From: Brachybacterium halotolerans
GTDB lineage: Bacteria; Actinomycetota; Actinomycetes; Actinomycetales; Dermabacteraceae
Assembly (NCBI RefSeq): GCF_016623465.1
Contig: NZ_JAEDAJ010000002.1
Coordinates: 322,093 to 386,092, forward strand
DNA: 64,000 bases
Direction: 5' to 3'
Shown: positions 3,233-35,277 of the stretch, in pieces
Layout of the letters: each line of letters starts with the position of its first letter
Numbering within the stretch: position 1 is the first letter of the stretch
Notes under the pieces: model-generated
Seen by the model: the letters and a program-made list of their open reading frames with translations, nothing else
Databases searched by the model: none
Told to the model about the DNA's origin: nothing
Position numbers and translations under genes: made by a program

Positions 3233-3591
3233 GCGTACAGCCCGATCGTGACCAGGGCGGCCGCGACGACGACGCCGATGACGAGGATCCCGCCGACGGC
3301 GAGACCCGGCAGCGGGGTGCCGGCGCGCAGCGACTTCTCGGTCGCCTTCCATCCGAGCCAGGCCTGGACGGCGGCGAGGGTGCCGAGCACGAGGAACACG
3401 ATCGAGGCGGCGGCCCTCCAGCCCACGGCCTCGGGCAGGGCGAGTGCCTCGAGGGCGAAGGCTCCGGCGTACATCGCCAGGGCCGTGCGCAGCCAGGCCA
3501 GGAAGGTGCGCTCGTTGGCGAGGCTGAAGCGGGGGTCGGGCTCGTCCCCGTCGCGGTAGACGGAGGCGGGGAAGCGACGCGGGGCGGTCAT
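3229..3591 (-). CDS. DUF202 family small membrane protein (first of pair)
   Basis: A 120-aa protein starting at an ATG that overlaps the FGE stop (ATGA). The DUF202 motif NERTFLAWLRTALAMYAGAF lies at about residues 27-46 and is followed by three predicted membrane segments ending at LVTIGLYA. It is related to, but not a recent duplicate of, the next gene: both have the ERTxLAW core but diverge elsewhere. The overlaps on both sides put it in the same transcript as the FGE. A role in supporting or anchoring sulfatase maturation is conceivable from context only. Confidence 0.87.
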   Translation of the reverse strand: MTAPRRFPASVYRDGDEPDPRFSLANERTFLAWLRTALAMYAGAFALEALALPEAVGWRAAASIVFLVLGTLAAVQAWLGWKATEKSLRAGTPLPGLAVGGILVIGVVVAAALVTIGLYA

Positions 3592-4670
3592 GCGGTGGCC
3601 TTTCCGGGGGTGGTTTCGTCTGGGGTAGCGTCGGCAGGGGCGGTGAGGGCGACGGTGCGAAAGCCGGCGTTGCCCATCGAGGAGTCGGGGGTGTTCTGGG
3701 AGCGGGCGGAGTTGCGGTAGCGATTGCAGTAGGAGATGTGGCAGAGGTAGCTGCCGCCGCGCAGGAGCCGTGCATGCCCCTCCTCGGGTCCGGTGGGGTC
3801 GGGGACGGCGCCGTCGGCGTCCCTCTCCACGCCCGGCCGCCGGTACGTCGCGGGGTGGAAGAAGTCCTCGCACCACTCCCACACGTTGCCGACGCTCTGG
3901 AAGAGCCCGTAGCCGTTGGGGGCGAAGGCGCGCACCGGGGCGGTGGTGAGGAAGCCGTCCTCGCGCGTGTTCGTCCGCGGGAAGTCGCCCTGCCAGATGT
4001 TCGCGCGCCAGCCGCCGTGGTCGGCGTCTCCGCCGGTGTCCGGCTCCTCGTCGCCCCACGGGTACTTGGCGCCCTCGAGGCCACCGCGGGAGGCGTACTC
4101 CCATTCGGCCTCGGTGGGCAGACGCCGACCCGCCCATGCGCAGTACGCCTGGGCGTCGTTCCAGCTCACGTGCACCACGGGGTGGTCCTCGAGCCCGTCG
4201 ATGCTCGAGCGCCTGCCGCCCGGGTGCCGCCAGTCGGCGCCCTGCACGCCGGCCCACCAGGGGGTCCCGGAGGCGGGTCCCATGATGTCGGCGTCGTCGG
4301 CCGCGATTGCGAGGTGGAAGACCGCGGAGTAGCCGAAGGCCTCGGCCTCGGTGCGGTGCCCGGTCGCCTCGACAAAGCGGGCGAAGTCGGCGTTCGTCAC
4401 CGTGGTCGCGTCGATGTCGAGGGCGCTGATCGCGACGAGGTGGCGCGGCACCTCGCCGTCGGCGCGGTTCCTGTCCCCGGAGGAGTCGCCCATGGTGAAG
4501 GTGCCGGCGGGGAGGTGGGCCTGGGGGACGAGATCATGGCGCCCGCGCCCCGAATCACGGCGGGAGGAATGAAACGCTGGAGGCGAGACCGAGCCTCCAG
4601 CGTGCTCGAGATCGTCTCTCGTCGGGTTCCCGCAACCGCACCCACAGTCACACGCATCCGCGTTCATCAT
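3588..4670 (-). CDS. Formylglycine-generating enzyme (sulfatase maturase, SUMF1/FGE type)
   Basis: FGE oxidises the Cys of the CxPxR motif in sulfatases to formylglycine, using O2 and a copper cofactor. The 360-aa protein has the family landmarks LPAGTFTMGD, HPVVHVSWNDAQAYCAWAGR, RLPTEAEWEYASRGG, GNVWEWCEDFF and the C-terminal GGSYLCHISYCNRYR block. The latter's two cysteines (about residues 310 and 315) have the spacing of the human active-site pair Cys336/Cys341. The start chosen is the first of two adjacent ATGs preceded by GAGGAG; ATG at 4691 is an alternative. The N-terminus has an unusual CDCGCGC cluster and is about 45 residues longer than typical actinobacterial FGEs. All five sulfatases in the window carry Cys, so this is the obvious activator. 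Confidence 0.93.
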   Translation of the reverse strand: MMNADACDCGCGCGNPTRDDLEHAGGSVSPPAFHSSRRDSGRGRHDLVPQAHLPAGTFTMGDSSGDRNRADGEVPRHLVAISALDIDATTVTNADFARFVEATGHRTEAEAFGYSAVFHLAIAADDADIMGPASGTPWWAGVQGADWRHPGGRRSSIDGLEDHPVVHVSWNDAQAYCAWAGRRLPTEAEWEYASRGGLEGAKYPWGDEEPDTGGDADHGGWRANIWQGDFPRTNTREDGFLTTAPVRAFAPNGYGLFQSVGNVWEWCEDFFHPATYRRPGVERDADGAVPDPTGPEEGHARLLRGGSYLCHISYCNRYRNSARSQNTPDSSMGNAGFRTVALTAPADATPDETTPGKATA

Positions 4671-4817
4671 TCTCCTCGTCTGCACGATCATCCTCCAGCG
4701 CAGTGCTCGACCCAACGCTCCATCGATTCTTGCAGGCACTCAGCCGCGGCGTCGGCGCCACTGCGCCCGGAAAGGACTCCGGCCGAGCCCCTCGGCTCAA
4801 CTCCCCGCACCGGGTGC

Positions 4818-6167
4818 TCAGATGGTTGCGAAGACGTTGAGCAGAGGGTCGGCGCTGCGCTCGAGTTCGGCCCTGAGCGCCGTGCGGGCAGCGAGCAGAT
4901 CGTCGGCACGCGCGGGATCGCCCGCGAGGTTCTCGAGGCAGTCGGGGTCGTTCCGCAGGTCGTAGAGCTCCTCAGGTGCGCGTCGGAGGTAGAACGCCGT
5001 GCGCTCCTCGAGGGCGTCGTCACCCTCCGCGGCGCCGACCATCGCCCCCCAGCTGAGCCCCTGCATGTTCTCCGCGCGGTACTCCTCCTCCCCATCCGAC
5101 CAGGAGTTCCAGACGTACCCCCAGTCGGCGGTCTGCACGCAGCGCATCTCGTATCGCCGCTTGGCGCTCGTCTCATGGAACACCGTGTGCACCCGATCCC
5201 GGCCGGCGATCTCGCGCGCACCGGCGCTCTCCTCGAGCAGCGGCATCAGCGTGCAGCCATCCAGGCCCTCAGGGACCTGCGATCCGATGATCTCGCAGAA
5301 GGTCGGGAAGAGATCCAGCGTGCTCACGAACGGTTCCTCGAGGACCGCGCCCTCGCGGATCCTTCCCGGCCAGGCGACGATCAGCGGCGTCGAGGTGCTG
5401 CGCAGGTAACAGTTCGCCTTGGCGAACGGGAAGGCCATGCCGTTGTCGGACAGGAACACCACGATGGTCTCCTGCGCCTGACCGCTGTCCTCGAGTGCGT
5501 CCAGTACCTCGCCGACCACGTCGTCGCAGCGCCGGGCGGAGCTCAGGTACTGCGCGACCTCTCTGCGCACCTCGGGCAGATCCGGAAGGAAGCCCGGGAC
5601 CTCGACCTCCTCTGCGGAGAACACCCTCGACGGTTCGGGGTACGCGGCGCGCTGCTGTGCACTCCACTTCGCGCGCTCGTCCTCGCTCCCGTGGAACGGG
5701 CGGTGGGGGTCATGCGCGTTGGCCATCAGGAACCACGGGCGAGCATCCTCCGCGGCTTCCGCGATGAACTCCCGCGCGGCCCGTCCGTAGGCCTCCGGAC
5801 TGCGACCGAGGCCCAGCTGCGACATGGACCGGGCGAAGTCCCACTTGAACCTCTCGACGGGTTCGATGTGGTCGACCTTCCCCAGGATCCCCGCGCTGAA
5901 CCCCTGTTCGTGGAGGTGATCGGTGAGGACCCCGATGCCGTCCGCGATGGGGCCGAAGCCCTCAGCGCCGTTGCGGTGCGGCAGGCATCCCGTCATGATC
6001 GCCGACCTGCTGGGCTGACACACTGCGATCGGGACATGACTGCGGCGGAACGACATCCCCGCGGACGCGAGGGCGTCAAGCCGGGGCGTGGCGCAGCGAT
6101 CGCCGCCGAACGCCCCCGGTGTGCGCGCATCCATGTCGTCGGCCGTGATGAGCAGGATGTTCGTCAT
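4818..6167 (-). CDS. Type I sulfatase, sulfamidase-like (sulfatase 1)
   Basis: A 449-aa alkaline-phosphatase-superfamily sulfatase that would hydrolyse a sulfate ester or sulfamate. The N-terminal metal site is NILLITADDMD, and the nucleophile Cys50 lies in CQPSR followed by SAIMTG, the formylglycine consensus. VVFLSDNGMAFPFAK supplies the second metal-binding DN pair. The protein begins directly with the first beta-strand and has no signal peptide, so it is predicted to be cytosolic. The start is supported by GAGGAAC six bases upstream. It is divergent from the MFS gene, with a 25-bp palindrome between them, and the FGE gene lies downstream on the same strand. The overall look resembles heparan N-sulfatase; the substrate is unproven. 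Confidence 0.9.
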   Translation of the reverse strand: MTNILLITADDMDARTPGAFGGDRCATPRLDALASAGMSFRRSHVPIAVCQPSRSAIMTGCLPHRNGAEGFGPIADGIGVLTDHLHEQGFSAGILGKVDHIEPVERFKWDFARSMSQLGLGRSPEAYGRAAREFIAEAAEDARPWFLMANAHDPHRPFHGSEDERAKWSAQQRAAYPEPSRVFSAEEVEVPGFLPDLPEVRREVAQYLSSARRCDDVVGEVLDALEDSGQAQETIVVFLSDNGMAFPFAKANCYLRSTSTPLIVAWPGRIREGAVLEEPFVSTLDLFPTFCEIIGSQVPEGLDGCTLMPLLEESAGAREIAGRDRVHTVFHETSAKRRYEMRCVQTADWGYVWNSWSDGEEEYRAENMQGLSWGAMVGAAEGDDALEERTAFYLRRAPEELYDLRNDPDCLENLAGDPARADDLLAARTALRAELERSADPLLNVFATI

Positions 6168-6219
6168 CAGGTTCCTCTCGTTCCTCTGATCCGGAGCTTG
6201 CCGAGACTCCACTCTACTG

Positions 6220-6244
6220 TTATTTTCTCCTCTGGAGTAACTAA
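6220..6244. promoter_or_regulatory. Putative ROK operator, copy 1
   Basis: Imperfect palindrome with left arm TTATTTTCTCC, 3-nt centre TCT and right arm GGAGTAACTAA; 8 of 11 arm positions are complementary. It sits in the divergent promoter region, 53 bp upstream of sulfatase 1 and 33-51 bp upstream of the MFS start. Two more 25-bp sites of the same layout occur at 8972 and 12195. AT-rich arms around a short centre fit operators of ROK/NagC/XylR repressors. Confidence 0.7.
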
Positions 6245-6295
6245 CGTTGCGCCCTGCTCCAGGCATAACACTTCCCGATGAAGCGAGGTCTCCCC

Positions 6296-7681
6296 GTGAC
6301 ACACGTCGACACCGGCGCACCGCCTGCGCCCTCCCCGACGGCCCGCCGGGTCGCACCCGGAGTCATCTACTTCTTCGGAGCGCTGGGGGCGCTGATCTGG
6401 GGGTACGACAACGGAGTGCTCGCCGGCGCACTGCTGTTCATCGAACCGCAGTTCTCGATGACACCGACTGAGATAGGCCTCGTCGGGTCCTTCCTCTCCA
6501 TCGGCTCCGCCCTCGGGGCCGTCACCTCCGGCCTGCTCGCGAACCCGCTCGGGCGCAAGCGACTGATCTTCATCGCGTCCCTGGTCTTCGCGGTCGGCAT
6601 CGCCCTGGCGACGTTCGCCAGCGGCGTCCCGATGCTCATGCTCGCGCGCCTCGTGCTGGGACTCGGGATCGGGCTCGTGGCGGTCTCGATCCCCGTCTAC
6701 CTGGCCGAGATCTCCCCGGCAGGAGTACGCGGGCGCATCGGCTCCCTCACTCAGCTGATGATCGCCTCCGGCATCCTCCTGGGGTACATCGGCAACCTCG
6801 CACTCTCCCCGTTCGGCGCCTGGCGACTCATGTTCGCGGTCATGATCGTGCCCACGATCGTCCTCGCGATCGGAGTCTGGGTCCTGCCCGAGAGCCCCCG
6901 ATGGCTGCTGCGCAAGGGCCGCCTGGACGAGGCTCGCGCCCAGCTCGCGCAGCAGGTGGACGCCGAGGAGCTCGAGCGCACCGTGAGCGAGATGCAGGAG
7001 TCCCTCGCCACCCGGCGCCTGCCTCTGCGCCAGGCCTTCGCCACGGGACTGGGGAAGATCATCGTGCTCGCGATCGCCCTGGAGATGCTGACGCAGCTGC
7101 TGGGCATCAACACCATCGTCTACTACGCCCCGAGCATCCTGAAGTCGATGGGCTTCTCCGATCACGCCGCTCTCGTCAACACGATCGGCTTCGGCGTGGT
7201 CTCCGTCGTGTTCACGGTGATCGCCGGTCGCGTGATCGACCGCTTGGGCCGGCGCTTCCTGATGGGTTTCGGCGCACTGATCATGGCCGCAGCCATGATC
7301 ACGATGGCCACGCTCTCCGCCACCATCGGATTCACCGTGGGGGTCAGCGGCATCATCGGGATCATCGCTCTGTGCGTGTTCAAAGCGACCTACTCGCTGA
7401 GCTGGGGCACCGCGACCCGTATCGTGGTCTCCGAGCTCCTGCCCACCCGCATCCGCGGATCGATGCAGGGGATCGCGCAGATCTTCAATTACGCCGCGAC
7501 GTTCGTCCTGTCTCTGACCTTCCCGATCCTCCTGGCCACCGGTAGCGGTCTCGCCTTCGCGATCTTCGGGTGCATGGGGATCCTTGCCTCGATCGTCGTC
7601 TTCCTGTTCCTCCCCGAGACCAAGGGCAAGACCCTCGAAGAGATCGAAGCGCAGGTGACCGCCCGCAAGGTCGGGCGCTGA
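6296..7681 (+). CDS. MFS sugar transporter (sugar porter family)
   Basis: A proton-coupled sugar importer of the inner membrane, 461 aa from the GTG at 6296, which has AGCGAGG seven bases upstream. An ATG at 6278 would add six residues but lacks a ribosome-binding site. Sugar-porter signatures are visible: GYDNGVLAGALLF in TM1, GRK in loop 2-3, the PESPRWLL motif after TM6, an Arg/Asp-containing GRVIDRLGRR loop between TM8 and TM9, and PETKGKTLEEIE after TM12. Divergent from sulfatase 1 and sharing the 6220 palindrome, it is the best candidate importer for the sulfated sugar substrates; that specificity is inferred from context. A strong hairpin follows the stop. Confidence 0.92.
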   Translation: MTHVDTGAPPAPSPTARRVAPGVIYFFGALGALIWGYDNGVLAGALLFIEPQFSMTPTEIGLVGSFLSIGSALGAVTSGLLANPLGRKRLIFIASLVFAVGIALATFASGVPMLMLARLVLGLGIGLVAVSIPVYLAEISPAGVRGRIGSLTQLMIASGILLGYIGNLALSPFGAWRLMFAVMIVPTIVLAIGVWVLPESPRWLLRKGRLDEARAQLAQQVDAEELERTVSEMQESLATRRLPLRQAFATGLGKIIVLAIALEMLTQLLGINTIVYYAPSILKSMGFSDHAALVNTIGFGVVSVVFTVIAGRVIDRLGRRFLMGFGALIMAAAMITMATLSATIGFTVGVSGIIGIIALCVFKATYSLSWGTATRIVVSELLPTRIRGSMQGIAQIFNYAATFVLSLTFPILLATGSGLAFAIFGCMGILASIVVFLFLPETKGKTLEEIEAQVTARKVGR

Positions 7682-7688
7682 CGCACCG

Positions 7689-7727
7689 CGGCGCGGCACC
7701 GGGCGACCAGAGCCCGGCGCCGCGCCG
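7689..7727. terminator. Bidirectional hairpin terminator between MFS and ROK genes
   Basis: A 16-bp GC-rich stem with a single A-C mismatch (left arm from 7689, right arm ending at 7727) encloses a 7-nt loop. It starts 8 bp after the MFS stop and lies between two convergent genes. No T-run follows, as is usual for high-GC actinobacteria, so termination activity is inferred from position and stem strength. Confidence 0.65.
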
Positions 7728-7764
7728 ACTCCGTTCGGCCCGAGCACCGCGCCCCCAGGGACCC

Positions 7765-8946
7765 TCAGCCGCGCACGCTGTAGACGAACCTCTCCAGGGC
7801 GACAGCCGCGGCACCGACGACGCCCGAGGCGGACCCGAAGGTGGGCCGGGCCAGCAGCAGAGTCTCTCGCAGGAGAGGGAAGACCCGAGCGCGGGTGGCC
7901 AGGTCCAGTCGCTCCAGGAGCTCGTCGCTCGCACCGTCGAGGATGCCTCCGACGACCACGAGTTCGGGCCCCAGGAGATTGACCGCCGCGGCCAGGCCGA
8001 TCGACAGATCGTCCACGGTGCGCCGCAGGAGCTCGGCCACGGCCGGGTCCTGTGGCGCATGCTCTTCCATGCGCCGCAGCGGGTTCTCCCCCTCGCTCCC
8101 GGGGATCGCAGCCAAGGCGCGCGTGAGCGCCGGCTCCGCGACGACGGCCTCGAGACACCCCGTCGATCCGCACGTGCAGGGCTCTCCCGTATCGGAGACA
8201 TGGACATGGCCGAGCTCGCTCACCCCGTGCCGCCCACCCAGGAAGGGCTCGCCACGCAGGACGAGCCCCAGTCCGACGCCCGTCTTGACGTACACGAAGG
8301 CGAGACTCGACGCGCGAGCTCCGAAGCGGCTCTCCGCGAGAGCCATCGCGGAGACGTTGTGCTCCGCGATGACGGGGAGTCCGAGCTCGGCTTCGACGAT
8401 GTCGGCGACCGGGGCGTCGCTCCAGCCCAGGTTCAGGGACAGTGAGTTGGTTCGACCGTCCGGCTCCACGACGCCGGGGGCCGCGACCCCCACGGCAACG
8501 GGATCGTGCGCCCCGAGGAGGTCCTCGTCCACACGCCGGGCGATCGAGCGCAGCGCCTCGTCCTGCGGCAGCCCGTCATCGAAGGTGAACACGGTCTGCT
8601 CCACCACACGGCCGAGACCGTCGACGATCGCGGCCTGTGCCGTGCCGACCCCGATCTGGATCCCGCACACGGCCAGCGTCTCGGAGCGCAGATGGAGCGC
8701 CACCGCGGGCCGTCCGATGCGCGCGCCCCCCGGGGCGGCCCCCTCTTCGACATACCCGGCCGTCACGAGCGGCGCGACCGCCTTCGTCACCGTCGTCGGC
8801 GAGAGACCGGAGATCTCTGCGATCTCGCTGCGCGAGAGCGGCCCCCGATCGCGCAGGAGCGTGAGCACGAGACCGTCGTGCCGGCCGCTGAGCGGCCCGG
8901 GGAGCTCGACACGTCGACGGCGGTTGCGTGCTGCTGTGGCGGCCAT
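7765..8946 (-). CDS. ROK family transcriptional repressor (NagC/XylR type)
   Basis: A 393-aa regulator. The N-terminal winged helix-turn-helix covers about residues 20-80 (LLRDRGPLSRSEIAEISGLS), followed by an ROK sugar-kinase-like domain with the zinc motif CTCGSTGCLE. The conserved GHVHV and the glycine-rich VGVAAPGVVEPDG are consistent with sugar sensing; whether any kinase activity remains is not clear. The start is the ATG at 8946. The divergent sulfatase 2 gene and the palindrome at 8972-8996 lie just upstream, which suggests autoregulation. Matching palindromes before sulfatase 1/MFS and sulfatase 3 make it the likely local repressor, released by a sugar or sulfated sugar. Confidence 0.92.
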   Translation of the reverse strand: MAATAARNRRRRVELPGPLSGRHDGLVLTLLRDRGPLSRSEIAEISGLSPTTVTKAVAPLVTAGYVEEGAAPGGARIGRPAVALHLRSETLAVCGIQIGVGTAQAAIVDGLGRVVEQTVFTFDDGLPQDEALRSIARRVDEDLLGAHDPVAVGVAAPGVVEPDGRTNSLSLNLGWSDAPVADIVEAELGLPVIAEHNVSAMALAESRFGARASSLAFVYVKTGVGLGLVLRGEPFLGGRHGVSELGHVHVSDTGEPCTCGSTGCLEAVVAEPALTRALAAIPGSEGENPLRRMEEHAPQDPAVAELLRRTVDDLSIGLAAAVNLLGPELVVVGGILDGASDELLERLDLATRARVFPLLRETLLLARPTFGSASGVVGAAAVALERFVYSVRG

Positions 8947-8971
8947 GCCTTGATCGTACAGGCGCGGTGGT

Positions 8972-8996
8972 TTAGTTTTGTGACTGGAGAAAAGAA
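8972..8996. promoter_or_regulatory. Putative ROK operator, copy 2
   Basis: Left arm TTAGTTTTGTG, centre ACT, right arm GGAGAAAAGAA, with the same 25-bp length and centre position as copies 1 and 3. It is located 25 bp upstream of the ROK start and 38 bp upstream of the sulfatase 2 start, so it could control both genes. The right arm matches the other copies better than the left arm. Confidence 0.68.
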
Positions 8997-9034
8997 CGCG
9001 GACCGAGTCCGCACCGAGAACGAGAGGGGTCCCC

Positions 9035-10486
9035 GTGCCCACACGACGACGTCCGAATATCGTCATGATCCTGACCGACGATCACGCCTCGCATTCGATC
9101 AGCGCCTACGGGTCGCTCGTCAACACGACGCCGCGGATCGACGAGATCGGACAGGCGGGCGTGCGTTTCGAGAACTGCTTCGCGACCAACGCCCTGTGCT
9201 CACCGAGCCGGGCATCGATCCTCACCGGAACGTACTCGCACATCAACGGGGTCTCGACGCTGGTCACACCCATCGACGCCTCGCAGCCGACGTTCGTCTC
9301 ACAGCTCAAGGCGGCCGGCTACCGCACGGCGATGGTCGGCAAGTGGCACATGGGCCATGGAGGGGAGCACGACCCCCAGGACTTCGACTACTGGGACGTG
9401 CTGAGCGGATCCGAGGGCCAGGGGGAGTACTGGAACCCCCTCTTCCTCAGCGCCGAGGGCGAGAGGACGGTCGAGGGATACGCGACCGATGTCATCACCG
9501 ACATGGCGACGAACTGGGTGGACGCGCTCGACGGCGAAGACCCGTGGTGCGTCCTCATCTACCACAAGGCGCCCCATCGTCCCTGGCATCCGAAGCCCGA
9601 GCACGCGGACCGTCACAAGCGCGAGATCCCGCTCCCGGCGACCTTCGAGGACGACCTCTCGACGCGGTCCGCGTCGTCCCGACGCGCGCTGATGCGCCTC
9701 GCAGAGAACCTGAACCGCGACGACCTCAAGGAGGACCCGCCCGAGGGCCTCACGTACGAGCAGGCCGCGGTGTGGAAGTACCAGCGGTTCATGGAGGACT
9801 ACCTCGCGTGCGTGGACAGCGTCGACGAGAACGTGGGCAGGGTCATCGACTGGCTGAAGGCCCGTGGGGACTTCGACGACACCGTGCTGATGTACGCCTC
9901 CGATCAGGGGTTCTTCCTCGGCGATCACGGCTGGTTCGACAAGCGGTTCATGTACGAGGAGTCGCTGCGCATGCCGCTGCTCATGAGCTATCCCCACGGG
10001 TTCGCCGGACAGCAGGTGCATGAGGGGCTGGTCTCGAACGTCGACTGGGCGCAGACGATCCTCGATGCGGCCGGGGTCGAGAGCCACGAACGCATGCAGG
10101 GCCGCAGCTTCTGGTCGGATCTCACAGGAGACGAGGACGGCCCCTCGCCCGCCGAGGGCATCTACTACCGGTACTGGGAGCACGACGACACGTTCCACCG
10201 CGCCCCGGCCCACTACGGCTACCGCACGGACCGCTACAAGATCATCTACTTCTACAACGACGGGCTCGGCCTGCCGGGATGCGGCCCCTTCACCTACCCC
10301 CCGGAGTGGGAGCTCTACGACCTCCACGAAGATCCTCAGGAGCTGCACAACGTCTATGACGCACCGGGATACGCGACCATCCGCGAGGAGCTCAAGGCTG
10401 CGATGTGGCGCGAACAGGAACGCCTCGGCGATGCTCCGCACGCGAGTCAGCCGCGCCCCGTGGCGCTCGAGAGCGCAGGCGCCTGA
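9035..10486 (+). CDS. Type I sulfatase (sulfatase 2)
   Basis: A 483-aa sulfatase starting at a GTG preceded by GAGAGGGG. The metal-binding strand is PNIVMILTDDH, the nucleophile Cys55 sits in CSPSRASILTG, and GKWHMGHGG gives the Lys/His pair typical of the active site. YASDQGFFLGDHGWFDKRFM carries the Asp/Gln and Lys residues of N-acetylglucosamine-6-sulfatase or iduronate-2-sulfatase-like enzymes. There is no signal peptide or membrane segment, so a cytosolic location is predicted. It is divergent from the ROK gene and shares operator copy 2. Substrate class (GAG-derived sulfated sugar) is a guess from motif similarity. Confidence 0.92.
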   Translation: MPTRRRPNIVMILTDDHASHSISAYGSLVNTTPRIDEIGQAGVRFENCFATNALCSPSRASILTGTYSHINGVSTLVTPIDASQPTFVSQLKAAGYRTAMVGKWHMGHGGEHDPQDFDYWDVLSGSEGQGEYWNPLFLSAEGERTVEGYATDVITDMATNWVDALDGEDPWCVLIYHKAPHRPWHPKPEHADRHKREIPLPATFEDDLSTRSASSRRALMRLAENLNRDDLKEDPPEGLTYEQAAVWKYQRFMEDYLACVDSVDENVGRVIDWLKARGDFDDTVLMYASDQGFFLGDHGWFDKRFMYEESLRMPLLMSYPHGFAGQQVHEGLVSNVDWAQTILDAAGVESHERMQGRSFWSDLTGDEDGPSPAEGIYYRYWEHDDTFHRAPAHYGYRTDRYKIIYFYNDGLGLPGCGPFTYPPEWELYDLHEDPQELHNVYDAPGYATIREELKAAMWREQERLGDAPHASQPRPVALESAGA

Positions 10487-10517
10487 GCCCTCGAGGGCCC
10501 GACGCGCGTCACCAGGA

Positions 10518-10558
10518 GGGGGGGGGGGGGGGGGGGGGGGGGCCCCCCCCCCCCCCCC
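10518..10558. repeat. G25-C16 homopolymer tract between convergent sulfatase genes
   Basis: Twenty-five consecutive G residues (10518-10542) are followed directly by sixteen C residues (10543-10558), with short complementary flanks (GGAG before, CTCC after). The strand can fold into an almost pure G-C hairpin or form G-quadruplexes. It lies between the ends of two convergent genes, so it could terminate transcription both ways. A tract of this kind is also a classic site of polymerase slippage or assembly error, and its exact length should not be trusted. Confidence 0.8.
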
Positions 10559-10599
10559 TCCCCGTTACGGGGTCCACACCGGCGACACCTCCGGCGCAT

Positions 10600-12156
10600 T
10601 CACCCCGCCGCGAGGAGCCCTCGCATGCGCTCCCAGGGGATCACGCCGTGCGCATCGGCCCATTCCTGCCACGACCCGGCGAGCTCCGCGACAAGGTCCG
10701 GGTGCGCGTGCGCGAGGTTCGTCAGCTCGGACCTGTCGCTGTCGAGGTCGTAGAGCTCCCACGGCGAGTCCGCCTCGCGCACGATCTTCCAACGACCGGC
10801 GCGGGCGGCGCAGTTGCCGATGTGCTCCCAGAACAGCGGCCGCGTCTCGTCGCCGGGCTCGGCACCGCGCAGAACACCGAGCATGGAGACGCCAGGGCCC
10901 GCGGGCACCGCCACGCCGGCGGCCTCAGCCAGGGTCGGCAGCACATCGGTGAGCTGATGGGGGGCCTCGAGGATCCGACCGCCGCTCAGCGACCCGCCCG
11001 GCCACGAGACGATGAAGGGCGTCGCGATGCCCCCCTCGTGCACCCAGCGCTTGTAGAACCGGAAGGGCGTGTTCGAGAGGTTCGCCCAGGCGGCCCCGTA
11101 GCTCGCGAACGTGTCGTCGCCGCCGGGCACGATCTCGGGGCGGTTGCCGATACGCATGGGGCGACCATCGAGAGTCTCCGACGGCTGGCGCTCGAGGAAG
11201 TGAGGGGCGTCCGCAGGAGGCAGCTCCTCTGCGCATGCCCCGTTGTCCGAGAGGAACACGATGATCGTGTCCTGCAGGGCTCCGCTGTCCTCCAGCTGAC
11301 GGAGCACGGCGCCGATCCCTCGGTCCATCGCCTCGACCTGAGCGGCGTACACGGCCATCCGCCGCGACTCCCATGCCGGGTCGCTCGCGTCGTCCCAGGC
11401 GGGCTGCTGGGGGTCTCGCGGGCTGAGCCCCGCGCGCTCGTCGACCACACCCTCGGCGAGCATCCGCTCGTAGCGCTGCTGGCGCAGGGCGTCCCACCCG
11501 GCGGCGTAGACCTCCTCGTATCCGGCGATGTCCTCTTCTCGTGCGTGCAGGGGCCAGTGCGGCGCATTGAACGCGAGGTAGAGGAAGAACGGATCGTCCG
11601 TCCGGGCATGGCTTCGCACGAACGAAGCCGCGCGCTGCGAGATCGCATCCGTGAGGTAGTAGTCCGGGTCCTGCGGCGCCTCCAGCTTCCGCTCTCCGTC
11701 CCACAGATGCCGGGGGTGGAAGTAGTCGTCAGCACCCGGGATGATCCCGTAGAACTCATCGAAGCCGCGGCGCGTCGGGAAGGTCTCGTTGACCTCGGCC
11801 GTGCGCCCCGTCAGGTGCCACTTCCCGAAGAGCCCGGTCGTATACCCGCCCTCGCGGAAGAGCTCGGCCATCGTCGGCACATCCTGCCGGATCTCTCCGG
11901 GGTAACCACCCCTCTCCTCCTGCCGATCCGTGAGCACGCCGATCCCCGTGCTGTGCGGATGGCGCCCCGTGAGCAGGCTCGCCCGGGACGGGCTGCAGCG
12001 CGCCGTGTTGTAGAAGCCGCTGAGGCGCACTCCGTCCCGCGCGAGGCGGTCGAGGTGGGGCGTGCGGATCTCTCCGCCGTAGCAACCGAGGTCCGAGAAG
12101 CCGAGATCGTCGGCCAGGATCAGCAGGACATTGGGGTGGGCCTCCGAGGCGCGCAT
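10600..12156 (-). CDS. Type I sulfatase, arylsulfatase-like (sulfatase 3)
   Basis: A 518-aa arylsulfatase-type enzyme. The metal site is PNVLLILADDLGFSDLGCYG, Cys54 lies in CSPSRASLLTGRHPHSTG, and GKWHL plus IVFLSDNGACAEELP complete the active site. C-terminal WELYDLDSDRSELTNLA is typical of S1 arylsulfatases. The ATG at 12156 is preferred because an upstream in-frame GTG (12207) lies inside operator copy 3; GGAG lies 4 bp before the chosen ATG. There is no export signal, so it is predicted cytosolic. It is convergent with sulfatase 2 across the G/C tract, and the palindrome in front predicts ROK control. Confidence 0.91.
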   Translation of the reverse strand: MRASEAHPNVLLILADDLGFSDLGCYGGEIRTPHLDRLARDGVRLSGFYNTARCSPSRASLLTGRHPHSTGIGVLTDRQEERGGYPGEIRQDVPTMAELFREGGYTTGLFGKWHLTGRTAEVNETFPTRRGFDEFYGIIPGADDYFHPRHLWDGERKLEAPQDPDYYLTDAISQRAASFVRSHARTDDPFFLYLAFNAPHWPLHAREEDIAGYEEVYAAGWDALRQQRYERMLAEGVVDERAGLSPRDPQQPAWDDASDPAWESRRMAVYAAQVEAMDRGIGAVLRQLEDSGALQDTIIVFLSDNGACAEELPPADAPHFLERQPSETLDGRPMRIGNRPEIVPGGDDTFASYGAAWANLSNTPFRFYKRWVHEGGIATPFIVSWPGGSLSGGRILEAPHQLTDVLPTLAEAAGVAVPAGPGVSMLGVLRGAEPGDETRPLFWEHIGNCAARAGRWKIVREADSPWELYDLDSDRSELTNLAHAHPDLVAELAGSWQEWADAHGVIPWERMRGLLAAG

Positions 12157-12194
12157 ACGGCTCCGTACCCGTCGTGATGACACGACGTCTCGAT

Positions 12195-12219
12195 TTCTAT
12201 TCGTCACTGGAGAAACTAA
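12195..12219. promoter_or_regulatory. Putative ROK operator, copy 3
   Basis: Left arm TTCTATTCGTC, centre ACT, right arm GGAGAAACTAA. It is located 38 bp upstream of the sulfatase 3 ATG. The spacing of the arms and the GGAG-AA--AA right-arm core are shared with copies 1 and 2. The right arm is the closest to an ideal half-site. Confidence 0.68.
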
Positions 12220-12365
12220 TTCTCCCAGATGCCCCCGTCAAGCCCTCGCGCACCCTGAGGGCGCTGACGGCCCGACGCCCGCGGGGCCCGCAGAGCCCGG
12301 CAGCGACGAAGGGGCGCAGGCACGCACCTCCGGACGGGCGCTGGCCGCAGCGGGGGCGCTGCCGC

Positions 12366-12890
12366 TCACCGCACCGAGCGGATGAATTGGTTGATGATCG
12401 CCCCCAGGCTTCCGATGATCTCCCACCGATGAAGAGCGCGGGGTAGTTCTCCCCTCCCCCGCCGATCATCAGGAAGAGTGACGCGGTCACCGGAACGAGG
12501 GTCTGCGGCAGCACGTTGGCCAGGTGCAGGACGCCCATGTCCTTCGCGACGTCCTTGCGGGACGGGAGGACTTCGGCGATCAGCGCCCGGTCCACTGCCC
12601 GGTACACCCCGTTGGCGAGTCCCGCCAGCGCGATGGCCACGAGCAACACGGAGAAGCTCGGCGAGATCGCCGCGACGATGTGGGCGAGGGCGACGATCAG
12701 GGCGGAGATCAGAACGCAGATCTTGCGTCGACGGATCTTGTCCGAGACCCATCCTCCGGCGACGCTGGCAGCCACGGTGCACACGGTGAGCACCGTCGTC
12801 GTGGCGAGGACGGCCGTGCCGATGGTCGCATCGGTGCACCCGAAGCGGGAGTCGGAAGCGGGGCACGTCAGCCCTCGACTGAGTGCGATC
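12366..12890 (-). pseudogene. MFS transporter remnant (C-terminal half, frameshifted)
   Basis: The reading frame ending near 12425 encodes membrane-transporter sequence: VAGGWVSDKIRRRK, then a helix LISALIVALAHIVAAI, then the AVDRALIAEVLPSRKDVAKD loop typical of actinobacterial MFS proteins. At about 12422-12430 the homology moves to another frame and continues as IIGSLGAIINQFIRSVR to a stop at 12366, so there is a frameshift near the C-terminus. The N-terminal half is missing. The fragment joins directly to a truncated TetR gene upstream. It is probably the remains of a third importer of this island. Confidence 0.8.
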
Positions 12891-15842: not shown

Positions 15843-17198
15843 ATGACCCATCCCGCACAGGGCACGGCTGCACCCGCACTCGAACCCACCGGACCCGCCC
15901 CCTCCACGAAGGTGCCCCACCGCTGGCGGAACCTCATCACGATCACCGGCGCCGAGGTCGTGGACAACACCGAGGCCGGCCTGTTGAACACTCTCTTCCC
16001 CTCGATCGCCGCCGCGCTGCGCCTCGACAACGGCCACCTGGGCATCCTCAGCGCCCTGGGCAAGTTCGCGGCGATCCCGTTCGGTCCGATGTGGGTCTGG
16101 ATCGCCACGCGGATCGGCCGCAAGCAGGCGCTCGTCCTCAACAACGTCATCGGCGGACTGCTCGGCATCGCCGCCGGCATGTCCCCGGGCTTCATCACCC
16201 TGCTGCTGTTCAACACGCTCCTGGCCGGCACCGTGAGCTCGGGCCAGCCGCTGACGAACGCCATCATCGCCGATTCCTTCGACGAGCGGTCCCGGGCGCG
16301 GGCCACCGGGTACTACTACGGCATCCTCACCGCCGTGTCCTCGTTCATCGGCCCCGTCCTCGCCCTGTTCTCCGGGCACCCCGACGGCTGGCGCTGGGGC
16401 ATGTGGATCATCGGCGGGATCTGCCTGTTGTCGTCCCTGCTGATCTCCGCCTTCTACCACGAGCCCGGCATCGGCGCGGCCGAGGCGCAGCTCGCCGATC
16501 TCGATGAGTCGCGACGCGCGTCCAAGGTGACCGTCCGCGGCGTCCTCGCGCTCTTCCGCATCCCCACCTTCTCGATCATGATGCTCTCGCGACTGCTCTC
16601 GGGGCACCTCCTGATCACCGTCTTCGGCATCCAGTTCCTCGTCACCGAGCGAGGGTTCTCCAACGCCACCGCCGCGACGGTCCTCGTGCCCTTCGGACTG
16701 GGGTACGTGATCGCCACCTTCCTCAGCGGCTACGCCGTCGAGCTGCTCGACAGACTCCTCCCCGACCACGGACGCGTCGTGTTCATCCAGGCGGCCCAGT
16801 TCCTCTTCGCGATCGCCGCGCTTCTCGGCACTCAGTTCGAGTGGGGCTCGATCGGCGTGTACGCGATCTTCTGGGCGCTGTTCGGGGCGACGCAGGGCAT
16901 GAACCCGCCGGTGAACCGCCCGATCGTCATGTCCGTGGTCCTGCCGGAGCTGCGGGGCCAGGCCTTCGCGATCTTCCTGACGTTCTTCCAGACGATCGCC
17001 TGGGCGCTGTTCTCGCTCTCCGCCGGGTACCTCGCCGAGGCCCTGGGCATCCAGGGCGTGTTCTTCTGGGTGCTGTTCGTGCTCATGGCCGTCAACGGGG
17101 TCATCCTCGGCGCCCTCTACTTCACCTACCCTCGGGACGCCCGGAGGGTCACCGACGAGCTCGAGGCGCGTCGTCGCAGCGCCGCGCCCTCCGCCTGA
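15843..17198 (+). CDS. MFS transporter (second of sulfatase island)
   Basis: A 451-aa, 12-helix MFS permease starting at an ATG with GGAG five bases upstream. TM1 carries TGAEVVDNTEAGLLNTLFPS and loop 2-3 has TRIGRKQAL; the fourth helix region has SSGQPLTNAIIADSF. The family is clearly different from the sugar porter at 6296, with no PESPR or PETKG motifs. Its stop is 11 bp before sulfatase 5, so the two form an operon and are presumably functionally linked: uptake of a sulfated compound followed by cytosolic desulfation. The substrate cannot be read from sequence. Confidence 0.9.
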   Translation: MTHPAQGTAAPALEPTGPAPSTKVPHRWRNLITITGAEVVDNTEAGLLNTLFPSIAAALRLDNGHLGILSALGKFAAIPFGPMWVWIATRIGRKQALVLNNVIGGLLGIAAGMSPGFITLLLFNTLLAGTVSSGQPLTNAIIADSFDERSRARATGYYYGILTAVSSFIGPVLALFSGHPDGWRWGMWIIGGICLLSSLLISAFYHEPGIGAAEAQLADLDESRRASKVTVRGVLALFRIPTFSIMMLSRLLSGHLLITVFGIQFLVTERGFSNATAATVLVPFGLGYVIATFLSGYAVELLDRLLPDHGRVVFIQAAQFLFAIAALLGTQFEWGSIGVYAIFWALFGATQGMNPPVNRPIVMSVVLPELRGQAFAIFLTFFQTIAWALFSLSAGYLAEALGIQGVFFWVLFVLMAVNGVILGALYFTYPRDARRVTDELEARRRSAAPSA

Positions 17199-17209
17199 AA
17201 GGACCTCGG

Positions 17210-18898
17210 ATGACACACGAGAAGACGCAGTCCCCGCCTCGCAGACCCAACATCCTGTGGATCACGACCCACGACATCAATCCCCACCTGGGCTGCTACG
17301 CCGGCGCCTACCCCGGCGCGGAGCACGCGGTGACCCCGCACCTCGACGATCTCGCGTCCGAGGGACTCCGCTTCGACAATGCGTTCGCCTCGGCGCCGAT
17401 CTGCGCGCCCTCCCGCTCGGCGATCATCACGGGCTGCCATCCTGCGTCCATCGGGACGATCCACATGCGCTCGAAGGCCGTCCCGCCGGCCGGTGTCCGC
17501 ATGTTCACCGAGCACTTCCGCGAGGCCGGCTACTACGTCACCAACAACTCCTTCACGGACTTCCAGATGGCGACGCCGTCGAGCGCCTTCGACGAGTGCA
17601 GCGACACCGCGCACTGGCGAGACCGTCCGGACCCTGACCAGCCGTTCTTCGCGACCTTCCATGGGCTCATCACCCACGAGTCACAGATCCATCTGGACGA
17701 GGAGTCCTTCGAGGAGCGCGTGCCGCACGTGCGTCCCGAGGACCGGCACGCCCCGGAGGACGTCGAACTGCCGCCCTACTATCCGGACACCCAGGTGTTC
17801 CGGGTCGCCTGGGCCCGCTACCTCGACCTCATCGGCGAGATGGACCATTGGGTGGGCACGATCCTCCAGCAGCTCGAGGACGACGGTCTCGCGCAGAGCA
17901 CCATCGTCGTCTTCTGGAGCGACCACGGTCGCGGGATGCCCCGTGCCAAGCGCTGGGCGAACGACTCCGGCCTTCACGAACCTCTCATCATCCGCTGGCC
18001 TGGTCGCATCACCCCAGGCGCGAGGACAGAGGCGCTCGTGCACCTCATGGATCTCGCCCCGAGCATGCTCGCCGCGGCCGGTCTCGAGGTTCCCGACCAC
18101 ATGCAGGCGAGACCCTTCCTCGACAGCTCGGGCCGCCTCGACGAGCACACCAACGACTATGTCTTCGCCAGCAGGGACCGGATGGGCGATCTGCACGACA
18201 TGTCGCGCACTGTCAGAGACTCCCGTTACCGCTACATCCGGCATTACCACCCGGACCGCTCGCCGATGCAGCACTGCACCTACCCCGACGGCTTGAGCAC
18301 CTGGGCGGAGATGCGACGCCTGGCGACCGCGGAGGTCACCCAGCGGGCGATCGGCGATCTGCCGAGTTCCCTCACGCCGCTGCAGAGGACCCTCGTCGCT
18401 CCCAGCAAACCCGAGGAGGAGCTGTACGACCTGCTCGAGGACCCGCACGAGGAGCACGACCTCACGGGAGACCGAGAGCACGCAGAGACCCTGGCCCGGC
18501 TCTCGACCGCTCTCACGGACTGGCAGGAGCGGATCGGCGACCTGGGCTTCCTCACCGAGGACGAGCTGCAGGAGCGCTGGCGCCCCGGCGGAGACTGGCC
18601 GCGCACACCCGAACCCGAGGTCGTCGTCGCGCACGGCGCGGTCGAAGCCCGTTGCAGCGAATCCTCCGCCACCATCATCTGGACCGACGACCCGCCCGCG
18701 GCACACGAGCCCGAGGTCCCGCCGTCTGCCGCGGACAGCATGGGCTCACCGAGGAACGCGATCGGCTCCCCCGTCCCCGATGGACGCGCGTGGAGAATCC
18801 ACTGCGCCGCGTCGCCGATCCCCGCCGACCGCCCCGCGTGGGTCAGAGCCGTGCGACTCGGCTGGCAGCCCAGCGCGGACGTGGCGCTGCGGCACTGA
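17210..18898 (+). CDS. Type I sulfatase with C-terminal CHB_HEX_C-like domain (sulfatase 5)
   Basis: A 562-aa sulfatase whose ATG follows AAAGGA. The metal site is PNILWITTHDINPHLGCY, with His in place of one Asp as in heparan N-sulfatase relatives. Cys65 is in CAPSRSAIITGCHPASIG, and VVFWSDHGRGMPRAKRW supplies the second metal pair. The catalytic core ends near residue 450. The last 95 or so residues (VEARCSESSATIIWTD, then GRAWRIHC and VRAVRLGWQPS) look like the chitobiase/hexosaminidase C-terminal beta-sandwich found on some sulfatases. There is no signal peptide. It is in an operon with the MFS gene 11 bp upstream. Confidence 0.91.
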   Translation: MTHEKTQSPPRRPNILWITTHDINPHLGCYAGAYPGAEHAVTPHLDDLASEGLRFDNAFASAPICAPSRSAIITGCHPASIGTIHMRSKAVPPAGVRMFTEHFREAGYYVTNNSFTDFQMATPSSAFDECSDTAHWRDRPDPDQPFFATFHGLITHESQIHLDEESFEERVPHVRPEDRHAPEDVELPPYYPDTQVFRVAWARYLDLIGEMDHWVGTILQQLEDDGLAQSTIVVFWSDHGRGMPRAKRWANDSGLHEPLIIRWPGRITPGARTEALVHLMDLAPSMLAAAGLEVPDHMQARPFLDSSGRLDEHTNDYVFASRDRMGDLHDMSRTVRDSRYRYIRHYHPDRSPMQHCTYPDGLSTWAEMRRLATAEVTQRAIGDLPSSLTPLQRTLVAPSKPEEELYDLLEDPHEEHDLTGDREHAETLARLSTALTDWQERIGDLGFLTEDELQERWRPGGDWPRTPEPEVVVAHGAVEARCSESSATIIWTDDPPAAHEPEVPPSAADSMGSPRNAIGSPVPDGRAWRIHCAASPIPADRPAWVRAVRLGWQPSADVALRH

Positions 18899-31701: not shown

Positions 31702-34700
31702 TCAGCGAGCGGCACGTCGAGAGATCACGACGCTCGCAGCACCCCCGATCAGGAGCAGCGCAGCGATGCCGACCATCGCGGCGGTGCCGGCGGCGCCGGT
31801 GTTGGCAAGTGACCCGGTGGGGTAGCTCGACGTCCCGGAGCTGCCTGAGCCGCTGGTCCCGGAGCCGGTGCCACCGGCGTTGCCCGAGGCGTTCGCACTC
31901 GAGTTGTCGCCGCTGCCGCTGCTTCCATCGGCAGCGGTCACCGTGAGATCGGCACTGGCGGTCTCACCGGAGTCCGCCGTGGCGACGACCGAGTACTCAC
32001 CCGGGTCCGAACCTTCCGGAACGGTGACCACGGCAGTGAAGCTGCCGTCGTCATCGGTCGTCACGGTGACAGGATCGCCGACCGCATTGCCATCGGGATC
32101 GGTGAGCTGGACGGTGACATCGGTGTTGGGCGGGAAGCCATCGCCGGTCACGGTCGTGGAATCGCCGTCCTCGACCGTGCCGGGATCGACGTCGACCGTC
32201 GGATCCTCGGCGTTGTCGCTGCCGTTGTCCGAACCATTATCCGCAGCGTTGTCGCTGCCGTTGTCAGCAGCGTTGTCGGCGTTGCCATCCGCGGTGTTGT
32301 CGGCAGTGTTGTCACTGTCGTCATCAGTCGCGTTGTCACCACCGTTGTCGGCCGCGTTGTCACCGTCATCATCCGCGGCGTTGTCATCACCGTTGTCGCC
32401 GCCGTTGTCGGCAGTGTTATCGGCGGTGTTCACCTCGGTGTTGTCGGCCGTGTTGTCAGCGGTGTTGTCGGCCGTGTTGTCGGCAGTGTTGTCACTGTCG
32501 TCATCAGTCGCGTTGTCACCGTCATCATCCGCGGCGTTGTCATCACCGTTGTCACTGCTGTTGTCACTGCCGTTGTCGGCCGTGTTATCAGCGGTGTTCA
32601 CCTCGGTGTTGTCAGCCGTGTTGTCAGCGGTGTTGTCGGCCGTGTTGTCGGCAGTGTTGTCACTGTCGTCATCAGTCGCGTTGTCATCACCGTTGTCCGC
32701 AGCGTTGTCACCGTCATCATCCGCGGCGTTGTCATCACCGTTGTCGCCGCCGTTGTCGGCAGTGTTATCGGCGGTGTTCACCTCGGTGTTGTCAGCCGTG
32801 TTGTCAGCGGTGTTGTCGGCCGTGTTGTCGGCAGTGTTGTCACTGTCGTCATCAGTCGCGTTGTCATCACCGTTGTCCGCAGCGTTGTCACCGTCATCAT
32901 CCGCGGCGTTGTCATCACCGGGCTCGTCTGCGTTGGTGACCTCGAGGTCCGTCCGAGCCTCCTCGCCTGAGGAAGCGGTGCCGACGACCCCGTAGTTGGA
33001 GCCTGCCTCCGTGCCCTCCGGCACCGTCAGCTCCGTGGAGAAGTTGCCGTCGTCGTCCGTGGTGACGGAGACCGGTTCGCCCACAGGGTCACCGTTCTCA
33101 TCGACCAGCTGAACCGTGACATCGGTGTTCGGCGGGTAGCCCGAACCGGTCACCGTGGTGGTCTCGCCATCCGCGACGGTCCCGGGATCGACGGTGACGG
33201 CCGGTGTCGCAGCCTCTTCGCTCACGCGAACGCTGGACGAGGCGAGATCGATGTTCACCGCATCGGCGTTCGGCAGCAGCTCCAGGCTGAGCGCGTTGAC
33301 CGTGAACGATCCGTCACCGAGGTAGCCAGGCTCCGGCTGCTCGTTGATGGTGATGGAGACGACCTGAGCCAGGACACCGGAGAGCACCGGGTCAAGGGCC
33401 TCCAGGACCGGATCGACGACTGCGTCCAGGCCGTCGGCCAGCTCGTCGGTCGTCGTCGTGAGAAGCGGCCCGACGACCGCCTGCAAAGGATCAATGAGTG
33501 CGGACTGCACGACCGGCTTGAGGGGAGTCAGCAGCGCTCCGATGCTGACACCACCGGGCAGGCTGCCATCGATATCGATCTCAGGATCACCCTCGGCCGT
33601 GCCAGCGAGCTGACCCAGCGTCCCATCGACAGTGATGTCGACATTGCTGCTCAGGAGAGCGACCGTCACCTTGGCAGGGAGTTCGACGTGCACCTCGGTG
33701 GCGTTCAGCACCTCGGTCACACCCTCGGTGACCTTGGTGGGGAGGGTCGCGAGCGCTTCGTCGACCGCACCGGTGATCTTCGAGATCGTGTCGGCGGTCA
33801 ACAGCTCGGTGTTGGGGCCCAGGCCGTTCAGCGTGTCGCCCTCGACGAGGTTCTCGAGGTTGACCGTGATGGTGCCGTCGTTGAGGTCGATGAGGACGAT
33901 GCCGTTGGCATCGGTCAGCGGCTCGTCCAGCACCGTGGTGCTGAGCTCGTCCAGGGCAGTGTCGAGCCCGTCGATGCCGACCGTTCCACCACCGGCTTCG
34001 ACCGAGGCGACACCGAGGTTGACGTCGATGTCCACGGCATCCGCGACCTGTCCCAGGGCGCCGTCGGTGCCCAGGGTGTCGTCGATCGTGCTGCCGACTC
34101 CGGTGATCGTGGAGTCGACGTCGCTGGCGACGCCGCCCACCAGAGGCGAGTGGAAGCGCAGCTGACCGTCGGCCACGGTGTAGCTGGAAGTGACGTCCTC
34201 GCCGTTCGCGGACGCGGTCGATCCGAGCGCGCCGAGCTCGAGGCTCAGCTCGTCGACGATCTCGTCGGTCAGACCGGAGACGCCGGCCTGATCGAGCAGG
34301 TCGGTGAGATTGACCCTCGCACTGCCGTACTCGCCCACACCGCCCGGGTCGGGGGTGATGGCTCCGTCCTCGCCGAGCACCCCGGCGCTGGCCGTCGAGG
34401 TCGTGGCGTCCGGGGATGAGGCGTAGCTCGAGAAGGCGCCGGCCTCGCCGAGGTACAGCAGCCCGCCGCCATCGGTGTCACTGACCAGGGGGAGGGAGAT
34501 CGAGCCCAGGTCGACGTTCAGGGCGCCGAGCGCCTCAACATCCAGCGGGTTGGCGTTCGGGCCCGGGTCGCTGAGGTTCCCGCTCGCACTGGAACCTGCG
34601 TCCAGCAGGTCCTGGCCCAGCACCTGGCTCGCGATCACCTGCCCCAGCGCTTCGGACTGATCGGTATCCGCCGCGGAGGCGGAGGGGACGGACAAGAGGG

Positions 34701-34794: not shown

Positions 34795-35277
34795 GTTCGC
34801 TCCTGACATGAGGGTGCCCCCGGGGAAGCGTGGGGGATGTCACGGTGTGACCCTAAGCAGACTTACAGAGTCTGTTCAGCTCCGACAGGGGAATCTCGCC
34901 AGGAAAGCGCTTTGTTGCGCGATTGTTACCGTCCGGTATCCGACACCGACCCCCAGACCCGAGTCGCTTACCAGCACATTCACCCATACCGGACATCCGG
35001 CGCCGATGAGGTCGCGGCCTCCGATGCGCTCGTCGCTCGGCTCATCGGAGCCCTGCACACCACGACGGTGGCGGCCCGCGTTCGCGCCGCTCGATGGACG
35101 TCAAGAGTTCATCGCAGCATCGGGCACTGCTCACCCGCAGCGACGGACGATTCTTCGTGAGACCGCGGGACGGTGCCGAGCACAACACCCCAGGAGCTGA
35201 GGTCGCCGGGTTCTGCTCGGGCCTCGTCCGATGACGCCAACCGTTTCCCTCCACACCCTCGAGAGGTCGACATCTCC
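34795..35277. other. Divergent intergenic region upstream of adhesin and UDP-glucose dehydrogenase genes
   Basis: About 480 bp with no convincing gene. Visible structures are an inverted repeat at 34858-34874 (CAGACT, 5 nt, AGTCTG) just upstream of the adhesin, and an 8-bp inverted pair TCCGGTAT (34932) and ATACCGGA (34986) 46 bp apart. The latter region is slightly AT-richer and could hold the adhesin promoter or operators. No RNA gene was recognised. Confidence 0.4.

Follow-up and report, generated by a model that had tools for sequence, protein, structure and literature searches.

Which regulator controls the sulfatase island of Brachybacterium halotolerans, and through which DNA sites, is the question raised by a 64,000-nucleotide stretch of its genome (contig NZ_JAEDAJ010000002.1, positions 322,093 to 386,092; hereafter the window). 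A sequence-only reading of the window had proposed that three copies of a 25-bp palindrome define a local regulon of a ROK-family protein. Our analysis indicates that the three sites are operators of the local ROK repressor (rok, 7765-8946), which would control a cluster for the utilisation of sulfated sugars, and we put the probability of this explanation at roughly 85%. The sites are assigned to this ROK protein because they are confined to the surroundings of its gene and because a motif learned blindly from promoters of the ROK clade ranks them first, second and third in the window.

Three related sites around the rok gene

Copy 1 (TTATTTTCTCCTCTGGAGTAACTAA, plus strand) lies at 6220-6244 in the divergent gap between the genes for sulfatase 1 and a major facilitator superfamily (MFS) transporter, copy 2 (TTAGTTTTGTGACTGGAGAAAAGAA, plus strand) at 8972-8996 in the divergent gap between rok and the sulfatase 2 gene, and copy 3 (TTCTATTCGTCACTGGAGAAACTAA, minus strand) at 12195-12219 upstream of the sulfatase 3 gene. 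These positions and gene contexts, the shared right arm GGAG-AA--AA and the three-nucleotide centre ending in CT are as the sequence-only reading had described them. Pairwise identity among the sites amounts to 16, 19 and 18 of 25 positions, and the operator consensus, TTAGTTTCTCC-AGT-GGAGAAACTAA, is palindromic. The description of every copy as a palindrome stood for copy 1 (9 of 11 arm positions matching) and for the consensus, and did not stand for copies 2 (5/11) and 3 (6/11) taken singly. Among the 63,976 positions of the window, an arm match of 9/11 was reached at 56, one of at least 6/11 at 4,912 (7.7%) and one of at least 5/11 at 12,873 (20%). Because matches of 5/11 and 6/11 are this common, neither copy 2 nor copy 3 is significant as a palindrome individually, and palindrome statistics alone were rejected as support for them. 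Copy 1 is the sole convincing palindrome of the three taken singly; copies 2 and 3 are better described as asymmetric operators.

As a set, the three sites are far beyond chance. The pattern TTAGTTT-N11-AAACTAA, with up to three mismatches allowed, has exactly three matches in the 64 kb against 0.01 expected, a number reached by none of 100 shuffles, and a longer pattern that includes the core returns the same three sites. A scan of the 3.85-Mb assembly, as the sequence-only reading had suggested, yielded no further copies: the pattern matches the same three places only, all within 6 kb around rok, and the reversed pattern, used as a control, gave two forward and two reverse matches in the assembly. 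The PadR-linked half of the island (sulfatase 4, PadR, MFS, sulfatase 5), where nothing similar had been noticed before, likewise holds no copy in the window search at the same tolerance.

The ROK protein and its clade

The rok gene (7765-8946, minus strand) encodes a protein of 393 aa with a winged helix-turn-helix (HTH) at about residues 24-67 (HTH_24) and a ROK domain at 94-385 (PF00480, E 1.5e-43, 149.9 bits). The sequence CTCGSTGCLE at residue 257 is of the CxCGxxGCxE type, the ROK zinc motif, and the protein contains no match to DxGxT, the ATP motif of the ROK kinases. Judged by domain architecture, zinc motif and absent kinase motif, the protein is a ROK-family transcriptional repressor. 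It keeps the GH motif, its best-scoring models are of the NagC/Mlc type, and it shares with NagC and Mlc (NCBIfam models, PDB 1z6r) the domain order HTH, then ROK, along almost its entire length. Unlike them, it scores 138.5 and 126.9 bits, far under the respective equivalog cut-offs of 650 and 530, and its identification as a NagC or Mlc orthologue was rejected. The candidate site upstream of rok, a putative AT-armed inverted repeat near the regulator's own gene, lies 25 bp from the ATG and is supported by the comparison with clade promoters. The genome has 16 PF00480 matches, including this protein and one gene split into two pieces.

Searches for kin of this protein covered several taxonomic ranks, the order and class draws being samples of larger groups. 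At E≤1e-40 the gene occurs in the host family only in its own genome (1 of 47 family genomes). At E≤1e-35 the order draw gave matches in 53 of 396 genomes, G293 being the only clade kin among them, and at E≤1e-48 the class draw gave matches in 4 of 394, own genome included; within the families of G293 and G761 the counts were 2/186 (E≤1e-48) and 3/22 (E≤1e-55). A scan of named genomes confirmed one match of 30%, in a Geobacter metagenome-assembled genome. The clade kin comprise eight ROK genes of five genomes, in two genera of two other families, at 39-48% identity: G293 (two genes) and G535 (one) belong to one genus, G600, G696 and G761 (five genes) to another. In a tree, a branch with support 99/100 separates the nine clade ROKs from 17 other ROKs and ten paralogues from the host genome. 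By-eye counting in the alignment found the HTH recognition region S[PA]TT[VI][ST][KR] in eight of the nine, the ninth reading SIATISK. The 17 non-clade ROKs all differ from this pattern, L096 and L099 reading SATTVSS. The promoter of this L096/L099 gene, a non-clade ROK gene of two genomes, carries the site GTAGTTTCTCCAGACATTTGAGAAA, close to the window operator arm.

Sulfatase genes accompany the clade. Relatives of the window sulfatases occurred within the fetched 20 kb at four of the five clade loci (G293, G535, G761 and G600). G293 and G535 have copies of sulfatases 2 and 3 with 60-66% identity, and G600 has a sulfatase 1 copy with 57%. The first 20 kb of the G696 locus lacked such a relative; one appeared about 10.5 kb from the ROK gene after this stretch was widened by 20 kb on either side, the flanks of the non-clade loci being kept at 18 kb. 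None of the 17 non-clade loci, which are part of the order-draw matches, has a sulfatase relative at E≤1e-8 within its 18 kb. In addition, a clade ROK of G293 adjoins a family-5 ABC importer, the G761 locus encodes GFO/IDH/MocA and xylose-isomerase-like proteins, CBM6-bearing GSDH proteins are found in G761, G696 and G600, and the G535 locus has a pectate-lyase-like protein. Sulfatase 5 of the PadR half (16841-18898) also has relatives of 37-39% at clade loci (G293, G535, G761, G600); in the window itself it is without a ROK site.

Sites resembling the window operators are found at the promoters of most of these remote rok genes. A matrix of the three window sites gave best promoter scores of 11.9-20.7 at seven of the eight other clade rok genes; the eighth, inside an apparent operon, has no site (score -5.4). 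Retention of the ROK gene without the sites, which the sequence-only reading had named as evidence against itself, could be looked for in distant kin only, and there seven of eight clade promoters have a similar site. Remote sites selected with the window matrix yield circular matrices, which were set aside in favour of a blind run; here a palindromic 25-bp motif was learned from seven clade rok promoters and no window sequence. The best solution of this run ranks the window sites 1, 2 and 3 of 63,976 positions (scores 28.8, 25.9 and 23.2) and scores 10.9 or less elsewhere in the window, ranks 4 and 5 being 1-bp shifts of the same sites. Together with the confinement of the sites to the surroundings of rok, this comparison of sequences supports the earlier proposal that the ROK protein is the binder.

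Paired sites in the relatives stand about 130-170 bp apart. Their reading as looping pairs was replaced, as the model matches lie on opposite strands (G696, G761, G600 and G293 955/1086), an arrangement that fits two back-to-back promoters. A further pair of operator-like sites, with a spacing of 131 bp in either genome, is present in G293 (L065:955-1110) and G535 (L125:1408-1563); these sites adjoin other genes, the one for the pectate-lyase-like protein in G535, and may widen the regulon there.

Probable operators fused to predicted promoters

Each window site overlaps a predicted promoter in the same way, with operator positions 2-7 as the -10 box and a 17-bp spacer: TTGCCG and TATTTT for the MFS gene (6198-6226, plus strand), TTGATC and TAGTTT for sulfatase 2 (8950-8978, plus strand), and TTGACG and TAGTTT for sulfatase 3 (12213-12241, minus strand). 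This predicted fusion of each site to a -10 box is a detail absent from the sequence-only reading. On neither strand does the window have the arrangement TTG-N20-TANNTT anywhere but at these operators. The promoters come from a looser scan, for TANNNT with a -35 box at 16-18 bp, which was checked against the window background: of the 46 TANNNT, four have TTG at a distance of exactly 17 bp, three of the four being at operators, and seven have a -35 box of at least 4/6 at 17 bp.

With one operator arm doubling as the -10 box, the predicted transcription starts would fall inside the operators, at about 6233 (plus strand), 8985 (plus strand) and 12206 (minus strand), and a ROK dimer bound there would keep RNA polymerase off the promoters of MFS, sulfatase 2 and sulfatase 3. 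The fused layout at the three genes is read from the sequence; use of these promoters and their occlusion are probable. The -35 regions of the promoters for the divergent genes, sulfatase 1-FGE and rok, would likewise lie under operators 1 and 2. A weak possible -10 box, TAGAGT, lies at 6211-6216 (minus strand) for sulfatase 1-FGE, whose -35 box (2/6) would fall inside operator 1, and another, TACGAT, at 8953-8958 (minus strand) for rok, with its -35 box (2/6) inside operator 2; the latter was placed on the assumption of a leaderless mRNA from ATG 8946. Joint control of the divergent genes and autoregulation of rok might follow, less firmly than control of the three fused promoters. What is known of the ROK family suggests a product of uptake or breakdown as the inducer, with a sugar or sulfated sugar imported by the MFS porter as the likeliest candidate; its binding to the ROK domain would free the DNA.

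The layout also bears on the start of sulfatase 3. An in-frame GTG at 12207-12205 overlaps site 3, as had been pointed out together with its value for fixing this start, and the layout agrees: since the GTG coincides with the predicted transcription start, ATG 12156 is the likelier start codon.

Beyond the window, a mechanical rule (TANNNT inside the operator and a -35 box of at least 4/6 at 17 or 18 bp, in either orientation) found the fused layout at 7 of the 17 tabulated remote sites, with TTGACA, TTGACG or TTGACC as the -35 box in six and TTGCCG in one. A composite-element alignment (A1) and the model made from it (R1) combined the three window sites with ten selected remote ones, namely the seven that pass the rule, G600 6019 (-35 of 3/6), and G696 14010 and G293 1086, which are by-eye fits with a non-TA or shifted -10 box; the other seven remote sites were omitted. 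Over six genomes, all 14 matches of R1 at E≤1 lie at ROK loci; 13 of them are training sites and one, in G600, stands outside the training set. This search scored only 150 of the 419-1,729 first-look candidates per genome and may have missed sites. A wider reading of these data is that the clade, so far known from three families of high-GC bacteria (that of the host and two more), is specialised for sulfated glycans, that the element TTGACn-N17-TTANTTT... with its arm as the -10 box is portable, and that the ROK domain may sense a sulfated sugar directly. We regard this as tentative and rather doubtful, because the mechanical rule holds for no more than 7 of the 17 remote sites. If it were true, genes for sulfatases, transporters and lyases could be recruited into the regulon by gaining a single 48-bp cassette.

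Weight of the evidence and alternative explanations

Several results weigh against the explanation of the sites as operators of the local ROK repressor. Copies 2 and 3 are weak palindromes, a strict promoter scan of 6100-12400 returned no promoter, the promoters given for rok and sulfatase 1 are weak candidates, and ten of the 17 remote sites lack the fused layout by the mechanical rule. Column-permuted controls of the window matrix were modest, with p<0.05 for five of the eight clade ROKs, 0.06 for two and 0.64 for one, and three of the 17 non-clade ROKs likewise reached p<0.05, including two near-identical genes that have the site GTAGTTTCTCC. The blind run omitted the eighth clade promoter, the one without a site, and this choice was made after the scan with the window matrix. 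Among 12 random sets of seven non-clade promoters, run as a control with fewer starting seeds than the main run, one ranked the window sites 1, 2 and 5 and another 1, 3 and 140; in the remaining ten the best rank of any window site was 26. As two control sets also rank the window sites high, the motif signal is partly general to ROK or AT-rich promoters, yet in these comparisons it points clearly to this clade. A matrix from the G293 and G535 sites alone scores position 43422, outside the island, at 19.7, against 22.3 for site 3. Finally, no ROK kin above 48% identity was found in the genomes searched, and because close relatives were not found, footprinting over short distances is not possible.

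The best-surviving alternative differs from the preferred explanation only in the effector: the ROK protein would bind the sites and sense sulfur status, for example an intermediate of sulfate assimilation, and the sulfatases would serve sulfur scavenging instead of sugar use. A precedent exists in CysR of Corynebacterium glutamicum, a ROK-type sulfur regulator whose binding depends on O-acetylserine or O-acetylhomoserine, and its one better-conserved operator arm and leaderless transcript are echoed in the window sites (PMC2580772). The absence of any glycoside hydrolase among the 15 window proteins scanned (1 to 22.7 kb) points the same way. However, the GH and CxCGxxGCxE motifs are retained in the window ROK, whose highest scores are with models of the NagC/Mlc type, the MFS protein is a sugar porter, the clade loci carry the ABC importer and the GFO/IDH/MocA, xylose-isomerase-like, CBM6-GSDH and pectate-lyase-like proteins named above, and CysR is at best a distant ROK member according to the same source (PMC2580772). 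We consider sensing of sulfur status unlikely.

Binding of the sites by another regulator, either a different ROK protein of the genome or an unrelated factor, is far less probable still. The 16 PF00480 matches, the general likeness of ROK operators and the similar sites at the L096 and L099 promoters speak for it, but all genomic sites found surround this rok, and in two other families the motif goes with this clade. A similarly slight chance is left to the sites being AT-rich promoters that are alike by chance or through recent duplication, with no operator function. The outer arm does double as a -10 box, AT-rich motifs score well in AT-rich gaps, and for 12 of 300 column-permuted matrices the three sites were exactly the top three; against this, the likeness spans 25 bp including the GC core CTGGAG and does not extend to the dissimilar spacers and flanks, and the blind motif separates the sites (23-29) from everything else in the window. 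Activation of the sulfatase genes by the ROK protein at these sites, for which CysR of the same family offers a precedent at some genes, is highly improbable, given that activating CysR sites lie upstream of the -35 box (PMC2580772) and the window sites coincide with the predicted -10 box and start point.

Gene content of the cluster and its surroundings

Gene identities in the cluster were checked with Pfam and NCBIfam profiles. Sulfatase 1 (4818-6167, minus strand; PF00884) has CQPSR at residue 50, sulfatase 2 (9035-10486, plus strand; PF00884) CSPSR at residue 55 and sulfatase 3 (10600-12156, minus strand; PF00884) CSPSR at residue 54, so that all three contain CxPxR, the sulfatase active-site motif. 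An FGE-type sulfatase-modifying factor (3588-4739, minus strand; PF03781) is probably co-transcribed with sulfatase 1, since its gene lies directly downstream on the same strand. The MFS transporter (6278-7681, plus strand) matches the sugar porter model TIGR00879 above its cut-off. Upstream of sulfatase 3, on the same strand, 12197-12793 (minus strand) encodes part of an MFS transporter, covering profile positions 43-155 of 347; it is apparently a decayed gene, and a comparison with the two intact MFS genes showed no clear similarity (best E 0.13). A stem-loop of nine pairs occupies 8995-9015, in the predicted 5' leader between operator 2 and the start of sulfatase 2; it scored as terminator-like on the minus strand, and 1.3 such sites are expected by chance in the region.

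At the edge of the window, 11-1168 encodes a ferrochelatase, one of two in the genome; the second (C12:199313) is 58% identical, and the copy adjoining the sulfatase island may be the extra one. The ferrochelatase and transglutaminase genes are about 18 kb apart here and about 80-110 kb apart in the five relatives (G037, G019, G004, G008 and G033) in which both were matched on one contig. Owing to that distance between the flanking genes, no clean empty site for the island could be shown in these five. Elsewhere in the window, the 25 bases GCAGTGTTGTCACTGTCGTCATCAG occur four times (32303, 32483, 32651 and 32831; spacing 168-180 bp) in the open reading frame 31702-34809, which suggests that it encodes an internally repeated protein.

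Comparison with known systems

As a regulatory principle, control of a cluster by its local ROK protein is ordinary; the additional features are the predicted promoter-fused operator and the sulfatase-linked ROK clade. A candidate operator and a candidate ligand-sensing protein are now in hand for this sulfatase cluster. The operator could be used to find further members of this regulon type, and a promoter reporter could identify the sulfated sugar of the cluster. A literature search found no published description of this ROK clade or of its operator, a weak negative, as subscription journals were mostly outside its reach.

The glycosulfatase-MFS cluster of Bifidobacterium breve is reportedly regulated by the ROK protein AtsR2, with an operator said to have been defined by gel shift and a radical-type maturase in place of the FGE type found here, and we take it to be a closer parallel to the window cluster than a pneumococcal island with a similar gene set. 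In the pneumococcal island, deletion of the ROK gene raised transcription of the sulfatase and of a phosphotransferase system (PMC3283741). Like the window, that accessory island unites a ROK repressor, sugar uptake, a sulfatase and a maturation factor; it differs in having the phosphotransferase system instead of an MFS transporter and in belonging to a distant organism, and the available part of the paper describes no operator (PMC3283741). A sulfatase is not mentioned in the available part of a study of bifidobacterial ROK regulons (PMC4746261). CysR and SsuR of C. glutamicum resemble the window system in being ROK-type regulators with inverted-repeat sites, one CysR arm being far better conserved, and with sulfur-related targets, and both cysR and ssuR have leaderless transcripts; they differ in the sulfur effector needed for CysR binding and in the position of their activating sites (PMC2580772).

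ROK operators that pair a T-rich with an A-rich arm are familiar from earlier work (PMC4856308, PMC2580772). RokB of Streptomyces coelicolor, which has two sites in its own bidirectional promoter, differs from the window ROK in its arm sequence and in a regulon of amino-acid metabolism and transport instead of sulfatases (PMC4856308). Its novH site, TTTGTTC-N11-GAACAAA, nevertheless shares the 7-11-7 layout of TTAGTTT-N11-AAACTAA, and this ROK regulator, too, binds imperfect repeats (PMC4856308).

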